DNA of 64,000 bases from Terriglobales bacterium (GTDB taxonomy: Bacteria > Acidobacteriota > Terriglobia > Terriglobales > Acidobacteriaceae), in the NCBI GenBank assembly GCA_025936825.1, contig JAICSO010000012.1, positions 62,001-126,000 on the forward strand, read 5' to 3'. The notes under the pieces are model-generated. The model made no database searches and had not been told where the DNA came from. It saw only the letters and a program-made list of their open reading frames with translations. Positions 12,028 to 20,521 of the stretch are shown in pieces. A program made the position numbers and the translations under genes. Positions within the stretch are counted from its first letter, which is position 1; the number at the start of each line of letters is the position of its first letter.

Positions 12028-12984
12028 CTACGCTCCCGCTGCTTTCTGCTGTCCCCGGTACCAGTCCACCGTCCTCCGCAAGCCTTCTTCGAAGCTCACC
12101 AGAGGTTTGTATCCCAGATCCTTCTCCGTCCGCGATAGATCTGCTAGTGAATGCTTCACATCGCCTGACCGCTCCGGCCCATACTTCAGTTCGCCCTTGT
12201 ATCCGATGATCTTCTTCAGTATCTCAAAGGTCTCGTTCAGATCCACGCGCGTTCCAGTCGCCACATTGAAGACTTTTCCTGCGGCTTCGGCAGCTGGAGC
12301 TTTTGCTGCAAGCAAATTTGCGGACACGACATTGTCGATGTAGGTGAAGTCCCGGCTTTGTTTGCCATCGCCGAAAGCAGTTGGCTGCTCGCCGGCCAGC
12401 ATCTGCGTAATGAATTTCGCTAGCACGCCGGAGTACGGCGAACTTGGGTCCTGCCGCGGCCCGAAAATGTTGAAGTAACGCAGGCAGACCGTCTCCAGGC
12501 CGTAGCAGCGATAAAAAGAAGTCATGTAGTACTCGCTGGCCAGCTTCGCCACGGCGTACGGCGAAATCGGATTCGGCGACATGCCTTCATGCTTCGGCAG
12601 AGTCGGCGTGTCCCCGTACGCGGACGACGAAGCCGCGTAAATCACGCGCTTCACCTTCGCGTCCTTAGCGGCGATCAGAACATGCATGGTGCCGTCCACA
12701 TTGGCGCGATTGCTACCTAGAGGATCAAGGACCGACTTCGGCACCGAAGGTATGGCCGCTTCGTGATAGATGTAGTCCACTCCGCGGCAGACCTGGTGCA
12801 ACCCGTCGAGATCCGCCAAATCCATTTCGCGGAAATCAATCTTGTTCAGGATTTCTGTGATGTTCTCGCGCTTGCCGGTAGAAAAGTTGTCAATGCCGCG
12901 CACCTGGTCGCCCTGCGCCAGCAATCCGCGCGCAATCGATGAACCGATGAAGCCGGCAATTCCCGTGATCAGGTATTGAGCCAT
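12028..12984 (-). CDS. NAD-dependent epimerase/dehydratase (UDP-glucose 4-epimerase-like, extended SDR)
   Basis: MAQYLITGIAGFIGSSIARGLL Rossmann motif, YAASSSAYGD, SPYAVAKLASEYY; start chosen at MAQYL inside the longer ORF 12028..13068. Confidence 0.9.
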   Translation of the reverse strand: MAQYLITGIAGFIGSSIARGLLAQGDQVRGIDNFSTGKRENITEILNKIDFREMDLADLDGLHQVCRGVDYIYHEAAIPSVPKSVLDPLGSNRANVDGTMHVLIAAKDAKVKRVIYAASSSAYGDTPTLPKHEGMSPNPISPYAVAKLASEYYMTSFYRCYGLETVCLRYFNIFGPRQDPSSPYSGVLAKFITQMLAGEQPTAFGDGKQSRDFTYIDNVVSANLLAAKAPAAEAAGKVFNVATGTRVDLNETFEILKKIIGYKGELKYGPERSGDVKHSLADLSRTEKDLGYKPLVSFEEGLRRTVDWYRGQQKAAGA

Positions 12985-13187
12985 GCTTTCAATATACCGA
13001 ATCACCGCGTCCGGCTTGCAATTCCAAAGGTAATGACTGTCGTAATCTCGCTTTGACTCTGTCCGCAATCAAACCTTTGCAATCTGCAATAGGCGAGTAC
13101 AACTCCGTGATTGACACGCGTTGTCCCAGCCCTTAGCATGCCCTCTCATACGCGCAACTCCTTTGATCAGGCGCGACGAGTGTAGAC

Positions 13188-14201
13188 ATGAGCCTTCGTG
13201 ATTTCATTTCCAAACAATTCATTGATGTAATCGAATGGGTTGAGCCCGGTGATGGCATTCTTGCCTACCGTTACCCCATGCAGGACCGCGAGATCCAGAA
13301 CGGTGGCAAGCTGACTGTTCGCGACTCCCAAATGGCAGTGTTCGTGAATGAGGGCAAGGTGGCGGATGTCTTTGGCCCGGGTTTGTACACGCTCAACACG
13401 CAGACTCTGCCCATCCTCACTTACTTACGCAACTGGGACAAGGCATTCAAGTCTCCCTTTAAGTCGGACGTCTATTTTTTTTCGACTCGCCTCCAGACGA
13501 ATCAGCACTGGGGCACGCCCAACCCGATCACGATTCGCGACAAGGAGTTCGGCGCGGTGCGGCTGCGCGGCTTCGGCATTTACACCTATCACATTGCCGA
13601 TCCTAAGGTGTTCTATACGAAAGTTAGCGGCACGCGTGACCTATACTCAGTGCCGGATCTCGAAGGGCAGTTGCGCAACACCATCATCGGTCGCCTCACC
13701 GACACCTTTGCCAACAGCCAGGTGCCGTTTCTCGATATGGCGGCCAATCAGGTTGAGCTCGCCGACAAGATTTCCGGCCAACTCAAGCCCGGCTTCGTGG
13801 AACTCGGGCTTGCCCTCGACAACTTCGTGGTCGAGAACCTCTCGCTACCCGAAGAATTGCAAAAGATCCTTGATCAGCGCATCAGCATGAACATGGTGGG
13901 CGACATGGGGCGCTACACCCAGTTCGAAGTGGCGCAATCCATTCCGACGGCAGCGGCGAATGAAGGCAGCGGCGGGGTTGGCCTTGGCGCAGGACTGGGG
14001 GCCGGTGTGGCCATGGGGCAGGCCATGATGGACGCAATTAAGCAGGCGCGCGCAGGAGCAGGCAGCGAACCATCTGCACCGGCAGGTGCCGCTCCCGGAG
14101 GAGCTGCGCCAGCGGCCGATACCAAGTTCTGCATGAATTGCGGCAAGCCGATTCCGCGGGCGAGCAAGTTCTGCCCCGAGTGCGGACACGCACAGCAATA
14201 G
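13188..14201 (+). CDS. SPFH-domain (virion core protein-like/YdjL-YdjI type) protein with C-terminal zinc ribbon
   Basis: VIEWVEPGDGILAYRYPMQDREIQNGGKLTVRDSQMAVFVNEGKVADVFGPGLYTL; C-terminal CMNCGKPIPRASKFCPECG. Confidence 0.87.
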   Translation: MSLRDFISKQFIDVIEWVEPGDGILAYRYPMQDREIQNGGKLTVRDSQMAVFVNEGKVADVFGPGLYTLNTQTLPILTYLRNWDKAFKSPFKSDVYFFSTRLQTNQHWGTPNPITIRDKEFGAVRLRGFGIYTYHIADPKVFYTKVSGTRDLYSVPDLEGQLRNTIIGRLTDTFANSQVPFLDMAANQVELADKISGQLKPGFVELGLALDNFVVENLSLPEELQKILDQRISMNMVGDMGRYTQFEVAQSIPTAAANEGSGGVGLGAGLGAGVAMGQAMMDAIKQARAGAGSEPSAPAGAAPGGAAPAADTKFCMNCGKPIPRASKFCPECGHAQQ

Positions 14202-14217
14202 TTTTTCGCGTTGAACT

Positions 14218-14604
14218 ATGAGTGGGATTGAGTGGGTTGTCGATGCGCAGGGGTGTAGTGCGGAATCTTTACGGGACCCCGAACTCCTTCGCCGACTTTT
14301 CGACAAGTTGATCGTCGACCTGCGGCTGCGTCCGATCGGCGCCACGCAATGGCACCAGTTTCCGGGCAGCGGCGGTATCACTGGCCTGTGCTTGCTCTCC
14401 GAATCTCACCTTGCCTGCCACACATTCCCTGAGTACGGCTCGCTATGCCTGAACTTATTCTGTTGCGTCCCCCGCGATGCCTGGGATTTCGCGTCACGGC
14501 TTGAGGAGATGTTCTCCGCCACTTCCGTGCAGGTTCGCGTCGTCGAGAGATCGTACAGTGCGGCCGAGGCTCTCGTAGCCGGAATCGGAGGCCGCGCCAG
14601 GTGA
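14218..14604 (+). CDS. S-adenosylmethionine decarboxylase-like protein (SpeD family)
   Basis: GITGLCLLSESHLACHTFPEYGSLCLNLFCC matches the SpeD core around the processing Ser (ESH..HTFPE). Confidence 0.85.
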   Translation: MSGIEWVVDAQGCSAESLRDPELLRRLFDKLIVDLRLRPIGATQWHQFPGSGGITGLCLLSESHLACHTFPEYGSLCLNLFCCVPRDAWDFASRLEEMFSATSVQVRVVERSYSAAEALVAGIGGRAR

Positions 14605-15230
14605 CACAGCCCACCGCCAATTGCCCCAACTGCGGCGCGAAGATTACCTTTCGCTGGTCGGCTAGCGTGCAGACTGTTTGCGAATACTGCAAATCCATCC
14701 TGGTCCGCACGGATGTCGATCTGCAAAAGGTCGGGCAAGTCGCCGACCTGCCACCGAACAGTTCGCCGATTCAGATTGGCACCGAAGGCATCTATGGCCC
14801 ACACTCCTTCGTTGCGATCGGCCGAATCATCTACGAGTACGACCAGGGCAACTGGAACGAATGGCACTTGATGATGAACGACGGCACCAGCGGCTGGCTG
14901 TCCGACGCACAAGATGAGTACGCGGTGACCTTCGCAGCGCCGGGCCGCAAGTTGCCGAAAGAGTGCGAGGTCGGCCAGCAATTCGCGTGGGACAACAATC
15001 CATACACGGTCAGCACCATCACCAAAGCGCATTATCGCGGTGTCGAGGGCGAACTCCCATTTCAGTATTGGGACAAGGCCGATGTGGTTTTTGCCGACTT
15101 AATGTCGATTACAGGCAAGTTTGCGACGATTGATTACAGCGATGACGAACCGGCGCTTTATCTCGGGGAATACGTCGACTTTGACAGCCTGAAGCTGAAA
15201 AATCTCCGCAGTTTTGAGGGGTGGGCGTGA
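14601..15230 (+). CDS. DUF4178 protein with N-terminal zinc ribbon
   Basis: CPNCGAKITFRWSASVQTVCEYCKSILV; GPHSFVAIGRIIYEYDQGNWNEWHLMM; 4-nt overlap with the speD-like ORF. Confidence 0.8.
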   Translation: MTQPTANCPNCGAKITFRWSASVQTVCEYCKSILVRTDVDLQKVGQVADLPPNSSPIQIGTEGIYGPHSFVAIGRIIYEYDQGNWNEWHLMMNDGTSGWLSDAQDEYAVTFAAPGRKLPKECEVGQQFAWDNNPYTVSTITKAHYRGVEGELPFQYWDKADVVFADLMSITGKFATIDYSDDEPALYLGEYVDFDSLKLKNLRSFEGWA

Positions 15231-16585
15231 GTTCCAGCGGCCCAACTCCTGCCGGGAATCCGCAAGTTAAGGCGCTGAACTGTCCTAGTTGCGGCGCCGC
15301 GCTGACCCTGCGCTCGTTCAGTCAGGCAGTAACCATCGTCTGCGACCACTGCCATTCCATTCTTGATGCCCAAGATCCGCGCCTCAAAATCCTGCAGAAG
15401 TTCAACGTCGAGACCGGTGAGGACCCGCCACTCATCCCGCTTGGCAACCGCGGTACCATCCGTGGCGCGCAATACGAGGTCATCGGATTTCAACGCCGCA
15501 CGATTATTGTCGACGGCACTCCCTACAGTTGGCACGAGTACCTCCTCTTTAATCCATTCAAAGGATTTCGTTATCTCACCGAGTACCAGGGCCACTGGAA
15601 TGACGTGAGTGTGTTGCGCGCGCTCCCGATCACCAGTCCCGGTGCCAGCACGCTGAACTACTTGGGAGAAACCTACCGTCATTTCCAGACTGCCACGGCT
15701 GAGACCAGCTATGTGCTGGGCGAGTTCCCCTGGCAAGTACGAGTGGGTGAATCGGCTGAGGTTTCGGATTACGTCGCGCCGCCCCGCGTTATTTCCAGCG
15801 AGAAAACTGGCAAGGAAGTTACCTGGTCAATGGGCGAGTACATGACCGGGAGCGATGTTTGGAAGTCATTCAAGCTGCCAGGCAGTCCGCCAGAAGCGAT
15901 CGGAGTGTATGAAAACCAGCCCTCGCCGCTAAGTGCGGACGTCACTTCCGTCTGGCGCATGGTTGGCATTTTCCTGGCGCTTCTGGTCGTGCTGATCATT
16001 GCGTTTTTTGCGATGGCACAAGATCAGCAGGTCTTTTCACAGTCATACACGTTCAACACCAACAATCCGAAGGGAGAAGCGTCGTTCGTTACAGACGTAT
16101 TCGAGTTGAAGGGGCACACCTCCGATGTGGAACTCGAGTCCTCCGCCGATGTCAACAACAACTGGATTTACTTCAACTACGCTCTAATCAACGAGGACAC
16201 TGGACACGCCTACGACTTCGGCCGCGAGGTCAGCTATTACCACGGCTACGATTCCGACGGATCGTGGTCGGAAGGTGGGCAAAAGGATTCCGTCACCATT
16301 CCCAGTGTTCCGCCCGGGCGTTACTACCTGCGGGTTGAGCCCGAGACTGACTATTACCACGGCACGATCTATTACTCCGTCACACTCCGGCGCGATGTTC
16401 CGCAGTTGAGCTTCTTCGGGCTGGCCGCACTCGCGTTGTTGATTCCAGCAGGATTCATTACTTGGAGATCGATGAACTTCGAGCACCTCCGCTGGGCCGA
16501 GAGCGACTCCGGAGATCCGTCCTTGTTGGGCGCGGTAGAAAAAATCAGAGACTCGATGCAAGGGGACGACGACGATGATTCGTAG
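15221..16585 (+). CDS. DUF4178 protein with N-terminal zinc ribbon and transmembrane segments (paralog of the preceding gene)
   Basis: CPSCGAALTLRSFSQAVTIVCDHCHSILD; GAQYEVIGFQRRTIIVDGTPYSWHEYLLFNPFKGFRYLTEYQGHWNDV; two hydrophobic segments. Confidence 0.82.
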   Translation: MGVSSSGPTPAGNPQVKALNCPSCGAALTLRSFSQAVTIVCDHCHSILDAQDPRLKILQKFNVETGEDPPLIPLGNRGTIRGAQYEVIGFQRRTIIVDGTPYSWHEYLLFNPFKGFRYLTEYQGHWNDVSVLRALPITSPGASTLNYLGETYRHFQTATAETSYVLGEFPWQVRVGESAEVSDYVAPPRVISSEKTGKEVTWSMGEYMTGSDVWKSFKLPGSPPEAIGVYENQPSPLSADVTSVWRMVGIFLALLVVLIIAFFAMAQDQQVFSQSYTFNTNNPKGEASFVTDVFELKGHTSDVELESSADVNNNWIYFNYALINEDTGHAYDFGREVSYYHGYDSDGSWSEGGQKDSVTIPSVPPGRYYLRVEPETDYYHGTIYYSVTLRRDVPQLSFFGLAALALLIPAGFITWRSMNFEHLRWAESDSGDPSLLGAVEKIRDSMQGDDDDDS

Positions 16586-16760
16586 CGCGCTGTTGATCTA
16601 TGGAATTGCGGTTCTCTCGGCCTTTTCCTTGGCCGAGTACCGGGGCTGGAGCCTGAACCGCGTCAGTGAGATTCCAAACGTACCCCGGTCCGTGCGCGAC
16701 AACCCAGGCTCGTATCGTTCCGTTTATGGCTACTACCACCATTACACAGGAGGGAAGTGA
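16575..16760 (+). CDS. Small membrane-associated hypothetical protein in the SPFH/SpeD/SpeE operon
   Basis: 61 aa; overlaps the preceding ORF end and ends 4 nt into the next ORF; hydrophobic N-terminus. Confidence 0.65.
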   Translation: MIRSALLIYGIAVLSAFSLAEYRGWSLNRVSEIPNVPRSVRDNPGSYRSVYGYYHHYTGGK

Positions 16761-16969
16761 TGGGCATTCAATTGACGAACGTGGTGAATGCGATTGTGTA
16801 CGCGGGCATTGGCATTGTGATCTTTGGCCTCGCGTTCCTCATCATCGACAAGTTCACTCCGTACAACCTCTGGAAAGAAATCGTCCAGGAACACAACACG
16901 GCGCTGGCCATTTTGCTTGGGGCCATGTCGCTCGGCCTCTGCGTAATCATTGCGGCGGCGGTCCATTAG
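16757..16969 (+). CDS. DUF350-family small membrane protein
   Basis: VVNAIVYAGIGIVIFGLAFLIIDKFTPYNLWKEIVQEHNTALAILLGAMSLGLCVIIAAAVH. Confidence 0.82.
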   Translation: MMGIQLTNVVNAIVYAGIGIVIFGLAFLIIDKFTPYNLWKEIVQEHNTALAILLGAMSLGLCVIIAAAVH

Positions 16970-16972
16970 ACT

Positions 16973-18469
16973 TTGGGAATCCTGCTTTTCATTACCGTTT
17001 TGCTGATCGCCGCCTGTGGGCTCATTTATGAGCTCATCGCCGGCACGCTCGCCAGCTATCTGCTCGGGGACAGCGTTCTTCAGTTCTCTACGATCATTGG
17101 CTGCTACCTGTTTGCCATGGGGGTCGGCAGCGCGATCTCTCGCTACATCGATCGGGGCCTTGCCTATCGGTTTGTCTGGATCGAACTGTTACTTGGCGTG
17201 ATCGGAGGTTTTTCTTCGGCCCTGCTATTTCTCGCCTTCGCCTACACCCAAGGATTCCAGCTTCTGATGTACGCATTGGTTGTGGTCATCGGAATTCTCG
17301 TAGGTCTCGAAATCCCGCTGCTGATGCGGATTATCCGCGGACGCTATCACTTCCGCGACGTGATCGCACACGTTCTGACCTTCGACTATCTGGGCGCCCT
17401 CGGCGCTTCGCTGCTGTTTCCCATCTTGCTGGTGCCATACCTCGGGCTTGTACGCTCGGCGATACTTTTCGGGATCTTGAATGTAGCCGTCGCCTTGTGG
17501 AGCACTTTTCTCTTTGCAAATCAATTGCCCCGGGCACAGGTTCTGCGTGGCATTTCCTTCGTCGTACTGTGTGGCTTGGGCTTGGGTTTTGCCGAGGCGA
17601 AGAAGATCACAATCGCCGCCGAAGACAATATTTATGCCGACGAGATTATTCTGGCTCGTGATACCCGCTACCAGCACATCGTTCTCACTCGCTTCAAAGA
17701 CGACATCCGGCTCTTCCTGAACAGTCATCTGCAATTCAGTTCTCGCGACGAGTACCGCTATCACGAAGCGCTCATCCATCCAGGATTGTCCGCAGTGCCT
17801 GTACCGCGCCACGTTTTGGTGTTGGGCGGAGGTGACGGGCTGGCGGTCCGCGAAATTCTCAAATATCCGCAAGTGGAGACGATCACTCTCGTCGATCTCG
17901 ATCCCGAGATGACGCACCTGTTCTCCACGCACCCCATGCTGACTGCGCTCAATCAAAAGTCATTCCTCTCGCCCAAGGTTCACATCATCAATGCCGACGC
18001 ATTCCCCTGGGTGGACTCGAACACCGACAGCTTCGATTTCATTGTGATCGACTTCCCCGATCCCACGAACTACTCGCTGGGCAAGCTCTATACGACGACT
18101 TTTTACAAGGCAGTAGCCCGTCACCTGAGCGCGCAAGGATTCATGGTGGTCCAGAGCACGTCTCCCATGTTCGCGCGCGACTCGTACTGGTGCATCGCGA
18201 ACACGATTCACGATGCCGGCTTGCAGACCTATCCTTACCACGTTTATGTGCCCTCATTCGGAGAGTGGGGATTCGTGCTCGCTGGAACCCACAGTTACTC
18301 GCCGCCAACGACGCTTCCGTCTGGACTGCGCTTCGTCGATGCTCAAGGTTTACCTGCACTGTTTCAGTTTCCGCCCGACATGTCTCCCATGCAGGTCCCC
18401 TCGAATCACCTGAACGATCAGGTTCTGGTCCGCCTCTACGACAAAGACTGGAAGGACATCAGCCATTGA
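16973..18469 (+). CDS. Membrane-anchored polyamine aminopropyltransferase (SpeE-like)
   Basis: N-terminal polytopic region, then HVLVLGGGDGLAVREILKYPQVETITLVDLDPEMT and DFIVIDFPDPTNYSLGKLYTTTFYKAVARHL. Confidence 0.92.
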   Translation: MGILLFITVLLIAACGLIYELIAGTLASYLLGDSVLQFSTIIGCYLFAMGVGSAISRYIDRGLAYRFVWIELLLGVIGGFSSALLFLAFAYTQGFQLLMYALVVVIGILVGLEIPLLMRIIRGRYHFRDVIAHVLTFDYLGALGASLLFPILLVPYLGLVRSAILFGILNVAVALWSTFLFANQLPRAQVLRGISFVVLCGLGLGFAEAKKITIAAEDNIYADEIILARDTRYQHIVLTRFKDDIRLFLNSHLQFSSRDEYRYHEALIHPGLSAVPVPRHVLVLGGGDGLAVREILKYPQVETITLVDLDPEMTHLFSTHPMLTALNQKSFLSPKVHIINADAFPWVDSNTDSFDFIVIDFPDPTNYSLGKLYTTTFYKAVARHLSAQGFMVVQSTSPMFARDSYWCIANTIHDAGLQTYPYHVYVPSFGEWGFVLAGTHSYSPPTTLPSGLRFVDAQGLPALFQFPPDMSPMQVPSNHLNDQVLVRLYDKDWKDISH

Positions 18470-19980
18470 GCCTCTCGCGGCGGAAGTTCCTGCAATCCTC
18501 CAGCGCCGCACTGGTCGGGTTATCGCTCAAGAGTGATCGGCCAATAGCCGGCTCCTTCGTAAACGACTCCTTCCAGCAGGGCCATCTGCTGCGCGATCGC
18601 GCCAGCTTTCCTGCGCCCAAGCAAAAGCTGAAAATTCCTGTCGTTATCGTTGGCGGAGGCATCGCCGGACTCAGCGCAGCGTGGCGCCTGAACAAACGAG
18701 GATTCAAGGATTTCGTTCTTCTCGAAATGAACGATCAGGCCGGGGGCAATTCCCGTTGGGGGGAGAACGAGATCACCGCGTATCCGTGGGCTGCGCACTA
18801 TGTTCCAGTTCCCGGACCGAAGGCAATTTACGTCCGCGAACTGTTCGAGGAACTCGGAGTCTTCAAGAACGGCAAGTGGGAAGATCGCTATCTGTGCTTC
18901 GCGCCCCAAGAGCGCCTGTTTATGTACGGCCGTTGGCAGGACGGTATTGAGCCAGCAGTTGCGCTCACCGCGAAAGATCGTGAGCAATTCCAGCGTCTCG
19001 AAGATCAGATCCACCAATTCCGCGCGACCGGCAAATTTACCGTCCCTATGGAAGTTGGGTTTTCCGACTCGACCGCTGCCCACGATCAAATGTCGTTTGC
19101 CGACTGGCTCCGCCAACATCACATGGATTCCAAGATCCTCAACTGGTACATGAACTATTGTTGCCGCGACGACTACGGCGCGACCACCGATCAGACTTCC
19201 GCGTGGGCGGGAATCCAGTACTTCGCCTCGCGCGAGTCGGAAGAGAAAGGCCCACTTACCTGGCCGGAAGGCAATGGCTGGATCGTGCGTCGACTGCTGG
19301 AGAGAATCGGCCAGTTCGTCCGCACCGGACAGATGGTCCGCCAAATTGTGCCCGAGAAAGCTGGCGCAAGCGTGTTCGCAGGTGATACGCAATATCAGGC
19401 CGAGTTCGTCATCTTTGCCGCTCCTACGTTCCTCGGCCCATACCTGATCGAAGGCATGCCTCGATTGCACGACTTCGAGTACTCACCCTGGCTCACGGCG
19501 AATCTCACGCTGGACCGAATCCCGGCTTCCTACGGTGGCGATCCCACCTGGGACAACGTCTTCATGGAATCCCCAACCTTGGGCTACGTGGACGCCACGC
19601 ACCAGAGCCTGCGCACGCACATCGATCGCACGGTCTGGACGTTTTATTGGGCGCTAGCGGAAGGAAGTCCCGCGCAGAATCGGCAATTCCTGCTCGACCA
19701 CGATTGGAAATACTGGAAGGACGCTATCCTTCACGACCTGGAGCGCGTGCACACCGACATTCGCCAATGCGTTTCGCGCATCGACATCATGCGTTGGGGA
19801 CATGCCATGGCGAGGCCAAAGCCTGGTGCGATATATTCCGCCGAGCGCATGAAACTCCGAAAACCGCAAGGTCCACTTCTGTTCGCCAACTCCGACCTCA
19901 GCGGCTTCTCCATCTTCGAAGAGGCGCAGTACCGCGGCGTGGCGGCCGCAGAAGCGGTTTTGCGCAGGCTGAGTTCGTAA
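18466..19980 (+). CDS. Tat-type FAD-dependent amine oxidase-like oxidoreductase
   Basis: SRRKFLQSSSAALVG Tat-like signal; IPVVIVGGGIAGLSAAWRLNKRGFKDFVLLEMNDQAGGNSRWG dinucleotide-binding motif; TTG start overlaps the previous stop. Confidence 0.85.
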   Translation: MSLSRRKFLQSSSAALVGLSLKSDRPIAGSFVNDSFQQGHLLRDRASFPAPKQKLKIPVVIVGGGIAGLSAAWRLNKRGFKDFVLLEMNDQAGGNSRWGENEITAYPWAAHYVPVPGPKAIYVRELFEELGVFKNGKWEDRYLCFAPQERLFMYGRWQDGIEPAVALTAKDREQFQRLEDQIHQFRATGKFTVPMEVGFSDSTAAHDQMSFADWLRQHHMDSKILNWYMNYCCRDDYGATTDQTSAWAGIQYFASRESEEKGPLTWPEGNGWIVRRLLERIGQFVRTGQMVRQIVPEKAGASVFAGDTQYQAEFVIFAAPTFLGPYLIEGMPRLHDFEYSPWLTANLTLDRIPASYGGDPTWDNVFMESPTLGYVDATHQSLRTHIDRTVWTFYWALAEGSPAQNRQFLLDHDWKYWKDAILHDLERVHTDIRQCVSRIDIMRWGHAMARPKPGAIYSAERMKLRKPQGPLLFANSDLSGFSIFEEAQYRGVAAAEAVLRRLSS

Positions 19981-20062
19981 CCATTCAGCAGGTTTTAACC
20001 CACCGCTGTACCTGCGCAGGAAGTTGACGAGACCCCGACCCCCAGTACAATGAAAGCAGCAC

Positions 20063-20139
20063 GGGCGCGTAGCTCAGGTGGATAGAGCATCTGCCTTCTA
20101 AGCAGAGGGTCGCAGGTTCGAGTCCTGCCGCGCCTACCA
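20063..20139 (+). tRNA. tRNA-Arg (anticodon TCT), CCA encoded
   Basis: GGGCGCG..CGCGCCT acceptor stem, anticodon loop CTTCTAA, GGTTCGAGTCC T-arm, ACCA end. Confidence 0.96.
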
Positions 20140-20335
20140 TTGCTGCGCCCTTAGACGTTCCCTACTGCATAATTCCTATAACCAATCTACAGGTTCTCCC
20201 TTGCAACTCACACCCGCCTAAATTCGTCTATCCAGCGCACGTGCCTTTTCGCCGCGAACACAGCGCACGTCACTCCCACATGCTTGAACGCTTGTAGGCG
20301 CGCCGCCTTCGTGACACCTTCAAGGACGAATCAGC

Positions 20336-20521
20336 ATGGAACTCACTGTGCGTCATCACATTGAAAATCTTGAACGCAGGATCCAGCAACTTGGGACAGA
20401 GTTGATGAATGCCCGCGATCACTCCCGTTTGAACGATCTCGAAACTGAAATTCGTGTTGCCAATCTCGCCCTCGAGCACTATCGAGAGGCTTTGCGCCTT
20501 GAGTCGACACTCGGGAAGTAA
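20336..20521 (+). CDS. Small hypothetical coiled-coil-like protein
   Basis: 61 aa amphipathic ORF MELTVRHHIENLERRIQQLGTELMNARDHSRLNDLE. Confidence 0.5.
   Translation: MELTVRHHIENLERRIQQLGTELMNARDHSRLNDLETEIRVANLALEHYREALRLESTLGK

Follow-up and report, generated by a model that had tools for sequence, protein, structure and literature searches.

A conserved acidobacterial operon joining SpeD and a membrane-fused aminopropyltransferase to a predicted Tat-exported flavoenzyme

Why should enzymes of polyamine type be encoded together with an SPFH protein, two DUF4178 proteins, a DUF350 protein and a flavoenzyme that carries an export signal? By published accounts, proteins in which SpeE is fused to a membrane domain are widespread among bacteria in the company of SpeD and DUF350; to our knowledge no product has been assigned to them. 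The operon described here lies in the genome of a soil acidobacterium, in a window (the whole stretch of DNA that was analysed) of 64,000 nucleotides.

Gene content and layout of the operon

Eight plus-strand open reading frames follow one another almost without gaps between positions 13188 and 19980. The domains of their products were assigned by HMM profile matches to Pfam and NCBIfam, and the original prediction of eight tightly packed, mostly overlapping genes was confirmed in both frames and domains at the positions that it had claimed.

13111..13139, plus strand: candidate sigma-70-like promoter, TTGACA-17-TAGCAT, about 49 nt 5' of the first start codon
13188..14201, plus strand: SPFH (Band_7_1) protein with C-terminal zinc ribbon, 337 aa (PF13421, 255 bits; ribbon at 314-334)
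14218..14604, plus strand: SpeD, class 1b AdoMet decarboxylase, 128 aa (PF02675, 85.7 bits)
14601..15230, plus strand: zinc ribbon and DUF4178, 209 aa, GTG start (HMM match)
15221..16585, plus strand: zinc ribbon, DUF4178 and two transmembrane (TM) helices around a beta-rich domain, 454 aa, GTG start (HMM match)
16575..16760, plus strand: 61-aa single-TM microprotein with the motif VPxSxRxxPGxYR, conserved in position between DUF4178 and DUF350
16760..16969, plus strand: mini-DUF350 with two TM helices (PF03994, 57 bits; ATG at 16760, alternative GTG at 16757)
16973..18469, plus strand: membrane SpeE (mSpeE), N-terminal multi-TM part and aminopropyltransferase domain, 498 aa, TTG start (NF002956)
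18466..19980, plus strand: flavoenzyme (FAO), predicted Tat-exported FAD oxidoreductase, 504 aa, TTG start (PF01593/PF13450)

A gap of 16 nt separates the SPFH gene from speD, which overlaps the first DUF4178 gene by 4 nt; further overlaps join the two DUF4178 genes (10 nt), the second of these and the microprotein gene (11 nt), and the latter and the DUF350 gene (1-4 nt, depending on the start chosen). The mSpeE gene begins after a 3-nt gap and overlaps the FAO gene by 4 nt in the sequence TTGA at 18466. This TTG start is conserved (MSLSRRKFLQ...) and homologues begin at the equivalent joint, and therefore a longer frame of 596 aa was rejected as starting too early. Matches such as the promoter candidate are no more numerous in the region than expected by chance. 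An Rfam scan from 12900 to 20400 returned nothing besides the tRNA, and the reading of the locus as a tRNA-Arg-linked island gained no support, as 13 related loci showed no tRNA near the operon.

Homologues of the SPFH protein are present at the related loci L052-L060, L037 and L061-L063, and the gene was not found at many of the related loci examined. A sequence search of the PDB found no relative of this protein or of DUF4178. The two DUF4178 copies scored 59 and 83 bits, each preceded by a Cys4 zinc ribbon, and in many genomes both genes form a single frame of about 650-700 aa. TM segments are predicted at 247-265 and 396-414 of the second protein, with strands modelled between them by AlphaFold at low confidence (pLDDT 53); Foldseek matches of this model were generic beta-sandwiches, without meaning. 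The product formerly described simply as a small membrane protein turned out to be a conserved one-TM microprotein, which matched no Pfam or NCBIfam family and whose homologue sits at the equivalent place in most related operons. The DUF350 protein, with two predicted TM segments, covers half of the PF03994 profile.

The three enzymes

SpeD retains E62-S63, H68 and C83 when aligned to T. maritima 1tlu, and the catalytic residues are conserved across 28 homologues. Its score against TIGR03330 (66) falls under the cut-off of 75.65, and in most flavoenzyme-bearing operons NLF/NLY-CC replaces the VDLFTCG-like motif near the catalytic Cys. These two features would suit a neofunctionalised arginine or ornithine decarboxylase, and hence a different chemistry, and such shifts of SpeD are widespread (PMC10407285). 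We consider this improbable, as the Ser, His and Cys of catalysis are all retained, an aminopropyltransferase is present in every case, and a canonical-type SpeD replaces the operon type where the latter is missing, either in cis (L039, L061, L062) or in the 22 FAO-positive genomes in which SpeD is located apart from the DUF4178 genes. The latter arrangement fits a need for decarboxylated AdoMet rather than for one SpeD subfamily.

The transferase scores 679 bits against NF002956/PRK03612, the membrane polyamine aminopropyltransferase (cut-off 472), and 126 bits against TIGR00417, the canonical SpeE (cut-off 249.55). It is a membrane fusion, not of the soluble type, with at least six predicted TM segments. 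Residues Y263, H264, E265, D288, D310, D342, D360, D363 and Q394 are conserved, and the catalytic ones are also supported by alignment to solved aminopropyltransferases. Judged by sequence, both SpeD and mSpeE hold intact catalytic sets, in keeping with the earlier proposal that the pair would make an aminopropylated product. Within the membrane domain, E20, E113, R119 and D138 are invariant among 13 diverse homologues. The motifs used to tell spermine from thermospermine synthases do not assign mSpeE.

FAO bears the Tat signal SRRKFLQ, and a Tat motif, often with a lipobox, recurs in its homologues; an FAD Rossmann and Amino_oxidase fold was matched by PF01593, PF13450 and PDB profiles. PAOs, PuO and MAO have without exception a lysine that faces flavin N5 (Lys300 of ZmPAO1; PMC7576179). 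This lysine is absent in all 25 of the FAO homologues aligned, where no column holds K in more than 14 of the 25 and none lies near the expected strand. Around the aromatic sandwich of these oxidases (Phe403/Tyr439), FAO aligns only distantly and its model is poor. Of the predicted Tat amine oxidase-like protein, the Tat signal is thus confirmed; as the N5 lysine is lacking, the label "amine oxidase" is unproven, and the substrate may be a non-amine.

It could follow that the substrate of FAO is a lipid or some other compound that is not an amine, and that the enzyme is functionally separate from aminopropyl transfer and shares only regulation by membrane stress; the top NCBIfam match, HpnE, points the same way although far below threshold (41 bits vs 283). 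We regard this reading as improbable. FAO and mSpeE nearly always adjoin, and their distance matrices are correlated at r = 0.965. Moreover, the best PDB profile matches of FAO are L-amino-acid oxidases, MAO-B, putrescine oxidase and SpdH. Foldseek ranked putrescine oxidase, MAO, NicA2 and SpdH first at a TM-score of about 0.35, which is only suggestive because the AlphaFold model is poor (pLDDT 57).

Distribution and polyamine metabolism

The gene set and its order recur in Acidobacteriota, in Gemmatimonadota (Gemmatirosa), in Novosphingobium and in Burkholderia, and conservation of the neighbourhood therefore extends outside close relatives. The Novosphingobium sp. ES2-1 locus is annotated as SPFH, two DUF4178, a hypothetical protein, DUF350, an aminopropyltransferase, an FAD oxidoreductase and SpeD. 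Among 297 Acidobacteriota genomes (all counts are raw and ignore kinship between genomes), a close FAO homologue was found in 48, every one of which (48/48) also has DUF4178 and SpeD, and DUF4178 occurs in 6 of the 249 FAO-negative genomes. With recurrence across phyla and this 48/48 co-occurrence, which goes beyond chance, the idea of a co-conserved operon has held, and the eight-gene set is a conserved, horizontally spread module. In raw counts, SpeD is present in 53/54 DUF4178-positive genomes vs 46/243 others, and canonical soluble SpeE in 0/54 vs 44/243.

The host genome was checked family by family. It encodes one SpeD and one SpeE-family protein, both inside the operon. Separate genes of an arginine/agmatine route specify an arginase and a pyruvoyl arginine decarboxylase, the latter encoded some 2 kb away from a deoxyhypusine-synthase-like gene; LysA is the only decarboxylase of alanine-racemase fold. 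These checks identified no putrescine-making gene in the host, the sole match to PF00491 being the arginase and not an agmatinase.

Could the operon be a plain polyamine pathway, in which SpeD and mSpeE use agmatine, putrescine, 1,3-diaminopropane or a triamine to make a free, perhaps unusual polyamine that exported FAO trims in the periplasm? The mutual exclusion with soluble SpeE would fit replacement, as mSpeE could simply substitute as spermidine synthase; agmatine is a predicted metabolite given the pyruvoyl decarboxylase; and 1uir, a T. thermophilus aminopropyltransferase, is among the top PDB sequence relatives. The same logic has been proposed for Pseudomonas aeruginosa, where SpeD2 and SpeE2, a thermospermine synthase, would act with the Tat-signal-bearing polyamine dehydrogenase SpdH in a setting of envelope and cationic stress and lead from thermospermine to surface norspermidine (PMC11107197). 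There, however, SpeE2 has 349 aa with no membrane fusion described, SpdH is encoded elsewhere, and DUF350, DUF4178 or SPFH partners are unmentioned (PMC11107197). The plain pathway seems rather unlikely to us: the invariant charged residues in the mSpeE membrane domain would be unexpected with a soluble substrate, and no source of putrescine was identified. Moreover, Li et al. 2019 reportedly saw no complementation of a SpdSyn deletion by the fusion protein or its SpdSyn-like domain, and spermidine was said to be absent.

A two-compartment scheme and its relatives

We favour, at a probability of roughly 0.55, an envelope-associated modification module that is encoded by the operon and spans two compartments. 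Cytosolic SpeD, with its catalytic residues in place, would make decarboxylated AdoMet, and mSpeE, likewise with its catalytic residues, would aminopropylate an amine that is located within the membrane or crosses it and is probably not free putrescine. FAO, carrying its Tat signal and likely lipidated in many species that have the lipobox, would then oxidise the product or a derivative beyond the cytoplasmic membrane. The other five products (the SPFH/zinc-ribbon protein, both DUF4178 proteins, the microprotein and DUF350) may provide a membrane scaffold for this chemistry or its control under envelope stress, a role suggested by domain types and by PspA-linked relatives. A more specific version is doubtful: mSpeE would aminopropylate a lipid or protein of the membrane from the cytoplasm, the multi-TM partners would carry it across, and exported FAO would oxidise it there to a new group that might be reactive.

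Li et al. 2019 are said to have described clusters of class 1b AdoMetDC, an MFS-SpdSyn fusion and DUF350 and to have proposed a polyamine-independent role. The host operon shares with them SpeD adjoining a membrane-fused aminopropyltransferase and DUF350, and shows the same features: a functional-looking class 1b SpeD, a membrane-fused SpdSyn-like domain and a DUF350 neighbour. The core of SpeD, membrane SpeE, DUF350, DUF4178 and band-7/PspA has already been reported, and membrane aminopropylation of a non-polyamine substrate proposed for it, by Ravi et al. 2024 (PMC11237479), who refer to Li et al. 2019. Its PspA/CesT-Tir operons share with ours the membrane-fused spermidine-synthase-like protein, DUF350 and DUF4178, and are also tied to band-7 proteins, polyamine genes and a proposed role in membrane stress (PMC11237479). 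In contrast, the eight proteins here include no PspA, CesT/Tir or lipoprotein; SPFH stands first instead, DUF4178 is doubled with zinc ribbons, DUF350 is shortened to a mini form with two TM helices, and the Tat FAO and the microprotein are added. The ATP-grasp/GSP-synthetase-like operons (the third group of Ravi et al. 2024, and the amidoligase papers) have DUF350, SpeD and a polyamine-oxidase-like enzyme in common with the host operon, and band-7 in one variant (PMC11237479). None of the eight proteins matches an ATP-grasp peptide ligase in Pfam or NCBIfam, as had been predicted, and the aminopropyltransferase fills the place of the transferase. Bacillus subtilis ydjFGHL likewise has a band-7 protein with C-terminal zinc ribbon and a link to envelope stress, but with PspA and a TPM-domain protein and no polyamine enzymes (PMC11237479).

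The operon is therefore a sub-type of described SpeD/membrane-SpeE/DUF350/DUF4178 operons, and the combination of FAO, tandem zinc-ribbon DUF4178, mini-DUF350 and the 61-aa protein is a monophyletic variant, the FAO-bearing mSpeE proteins forming a single clade (support 99/98). In the literature searched, with Li et al. 2019 outside the comparison, this oxidase-bearing variant seems undescribed. Pairing of the transferase one-to-one with an exported FAO should make the product accessible from the cell exterior and give it a testable second modification. Since the only SpeD/SpeE pair of the host lies in the operon, ordinary spermidine synthesis should not mask deletion phenotypes, and the relatives in Novosphingobium and Burkholderia are further candidate organisms for testing. 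If aminopropylation of a lipid or protein followed by oxidation outside were true, membranes would be modified in a way that belongs to no class known so far.

Gene organization and catalytic residues

Eight co-directional genes with spacing or overlap of no more than 16 nt make up the operon, matching the original prediction; the final gene encodes a Tat-exported FAD oxidoreductase (FAO).

13188-19980, operon: SPFH, SpeD, DUF4178, DUF4178, 61-aa microprotein, DUF350, membrane-fused SpeE-like aminopropyltransferase (mSpeE), FAO
18466, TTG, proposed FAO start
20063-20139, tRNA-Arg (TCT), immediately 3' of the operon, where relatives lack it

Pfam and NCBIfam confirmed SPFH/Band_7_1 with a zinc ribbon, an AdoMet decarboxylase family SpeD, two DUF4178 proteins each with a zinc ribbon, DUF350, and mSpeE as membrane polyamine aminopropyltransferase NF002956/PRK03612. 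The microprotein has no family name, and most related operons hold a homologue in the equivalent position. The FAO start should be shifted to TTG 18466: this codon shares the sequence TTGA with the mSpeE stop, and FAO homologues, which carry a Tat signal, also begin at this junction.

Both enzymes that had been proposed to make an aminopropylated product retain their catalytic residues. SpeD keeps the equivalents of Thermotoga maritima Ser63, His68, and Cys83, and mSpeE keeps Tyr263-His264-Glu265, Asp288, Asp310, Asp342, Asp360, Asp363, and Gln394 across diverse homologues, including those of the FAO-free type; Glu20, Glu113, Arg119, and Asp138 are invariant in its membrane part. Most FAO-bearing operons carry the SpeD subform N-L-F/Y-C-C where canonical forms have V-D-x-F-x-C-G. 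Three FAO-bearing loci (L039, L061, L062) possess the canonical form and in 22 FAO-positive genomes SpeD lies apart from the DUF4178 genes, thus the common requirement appears to be decarboxylated AdoMet (dcAdoMet). For FAO, suggested to be amine oxidase-like, Pfam and NCBIfam confirm the FAD amine-oxidoreductase fold, but 25 homologues share no conserved lysine. In PAOs, by contrast, the lysine at position 300 of the maize enzyme (Lys300) never varies, and putrescine oxidase and MAO have it too (PMC7576179).

Conservation and distribution of the operon

Co-conservation extends beyond close relatives. The order from SpeD to FAO is kept in Acidobacteriota loci of about 10 families at 30–60% identity, and the gene set also occurs in Gemmatirosa, in Burkholderia (rearranged), and in Novosphingobium sp. 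ES2-1 (SpeD last). Among 297 Acidobacteriota genomes, compared by Fisher values uncorrected for shared ancestry, 54 possess DUF4178; the 48 in which FAO has a close homologue (E ≤ 1e-199) are all DUF4178-positive. SpeD is present in 53/54 DUF4178-positive vs. 46/243 other genomes; for canonical soluble SpeE, counted from PF01564 matches at E ≤ 1e-40 after removal of mSpeE, the figures are 0/54 vs. 44/243. DUF4178 was found in none of the 20 other listed members of the host's own family.

In the mSpeE tree one clade (99/98) takes in all FAO-bearing operons, and mSpeE and FAO distances are correlated (r = 0.965). The window's group branches with copies from Gemmatimonadota, Burkholderia, and Novosphingobium (97/89 for this branch of 12 rows) and not with the other Acidobacteriota families, and this placement suggests horizontal spread of the FAO-bearing operon.

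Remoter FAO relatives (L075, L076, L077; E ~1e-60 to 1e-90) lie in unrelated neighborhoods of genomes lacking DUF4178. Copies in palsa and other soil MAGs (L055, L056, L060) look broken by internal stops or frameshifts, L060 with a deletion running from DUF4178 into mSpeE, reflecting either decay or assembly error.

Known operons and further variants

Ravi et al. (2024; PMC11237479) reported operons in which a SpeE-like protein fused to a 7TM domain occurs with DUF350 and DUF4178 and which are linked to PspA-CesT/Tir; they suggest that such operons monitor polyamines or aminopropylate other substrates. The consulted part of that paper describes the core operon and contains no description of the FAO-bearing, tandem-DUF4178 form (Li et al., 2019 lay outside the search), which we therefore count as a variant, an apparently undescribed sub-type of known operons. 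In the literature searched, a single paper names DUF4178.

Four other Acidobacteriota loci (L032, L033, L044, L050) hold an FAO-free form of DUF4178, DUF350, and membrane SpeE, with SpeD adjoining or elsewhere, similar to the Shewanella-type operon of that study; DUF350 is large and multi-repeat in the first three. On an Alteromonas mediterranea plasmid (L064), membrane SpeE and SpeD have DUF4178, DUF350, and a TelA-like protein ("toxic anion resistance") as neighbors, a further link to envelope or tellurite-type stress.

An uncharacterized multi-TM protein of ~360 aa without Pfam match adjoins FAO at L042:3266-4333(-) and likewise at L034, L037, L039, L041, L047, L051, L079, L080, L082, and L085. 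It has invariant His in FHFxRQQYGWV, DVAHV, HGxPY, and HYxLD, is found in 25/297 Acidobacteriota genomes (22/25 FAO-positive) and is absent from the window's genome; it may be an additional enzyme or carrier of the system.

Host polyamine metabolism and proposed pathway

The operon contains the host's sole SpeD and sole SpeE-family genes. Elsewhere (L073, host contig C60) the gene for a pyruvoyl arginine decarboxylase has a deoxyhypusine-synthase-like gene ~2 kb away, and the two may form an agmatine-based route to homospermidine or a bis-guanidino polyamine. Arginase is present, no agmatinase-type match was found in the genome, and LysA is the only alanine-racemase-fold decarboxylase; among the enzyme families covered by these searches, no putrescine source was found.

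The closest functional analogy is Pseudomonas aeruginosa SpeD2-SpeE2 with Tat-exported SpdH, hypothesized to form a cell-surface path from thermospermine to norspermidine (PMC11107197). The genes, residues, export signal, and co-conservation are observed, whereas the reactions and the direction each takes, as well as the acceptor and any part played as a scaffold, are all inferred. In the best reading, with a probability of roughly 0.55, SpeD would supply dcAdoMet, mSpeE would transfer its aminopropyl group at the membrane, and FAO would oxidize outside, while SPFH, the DUF4178 proteins, DUF350, and the microprotein would serve as scaffold or in stress control.
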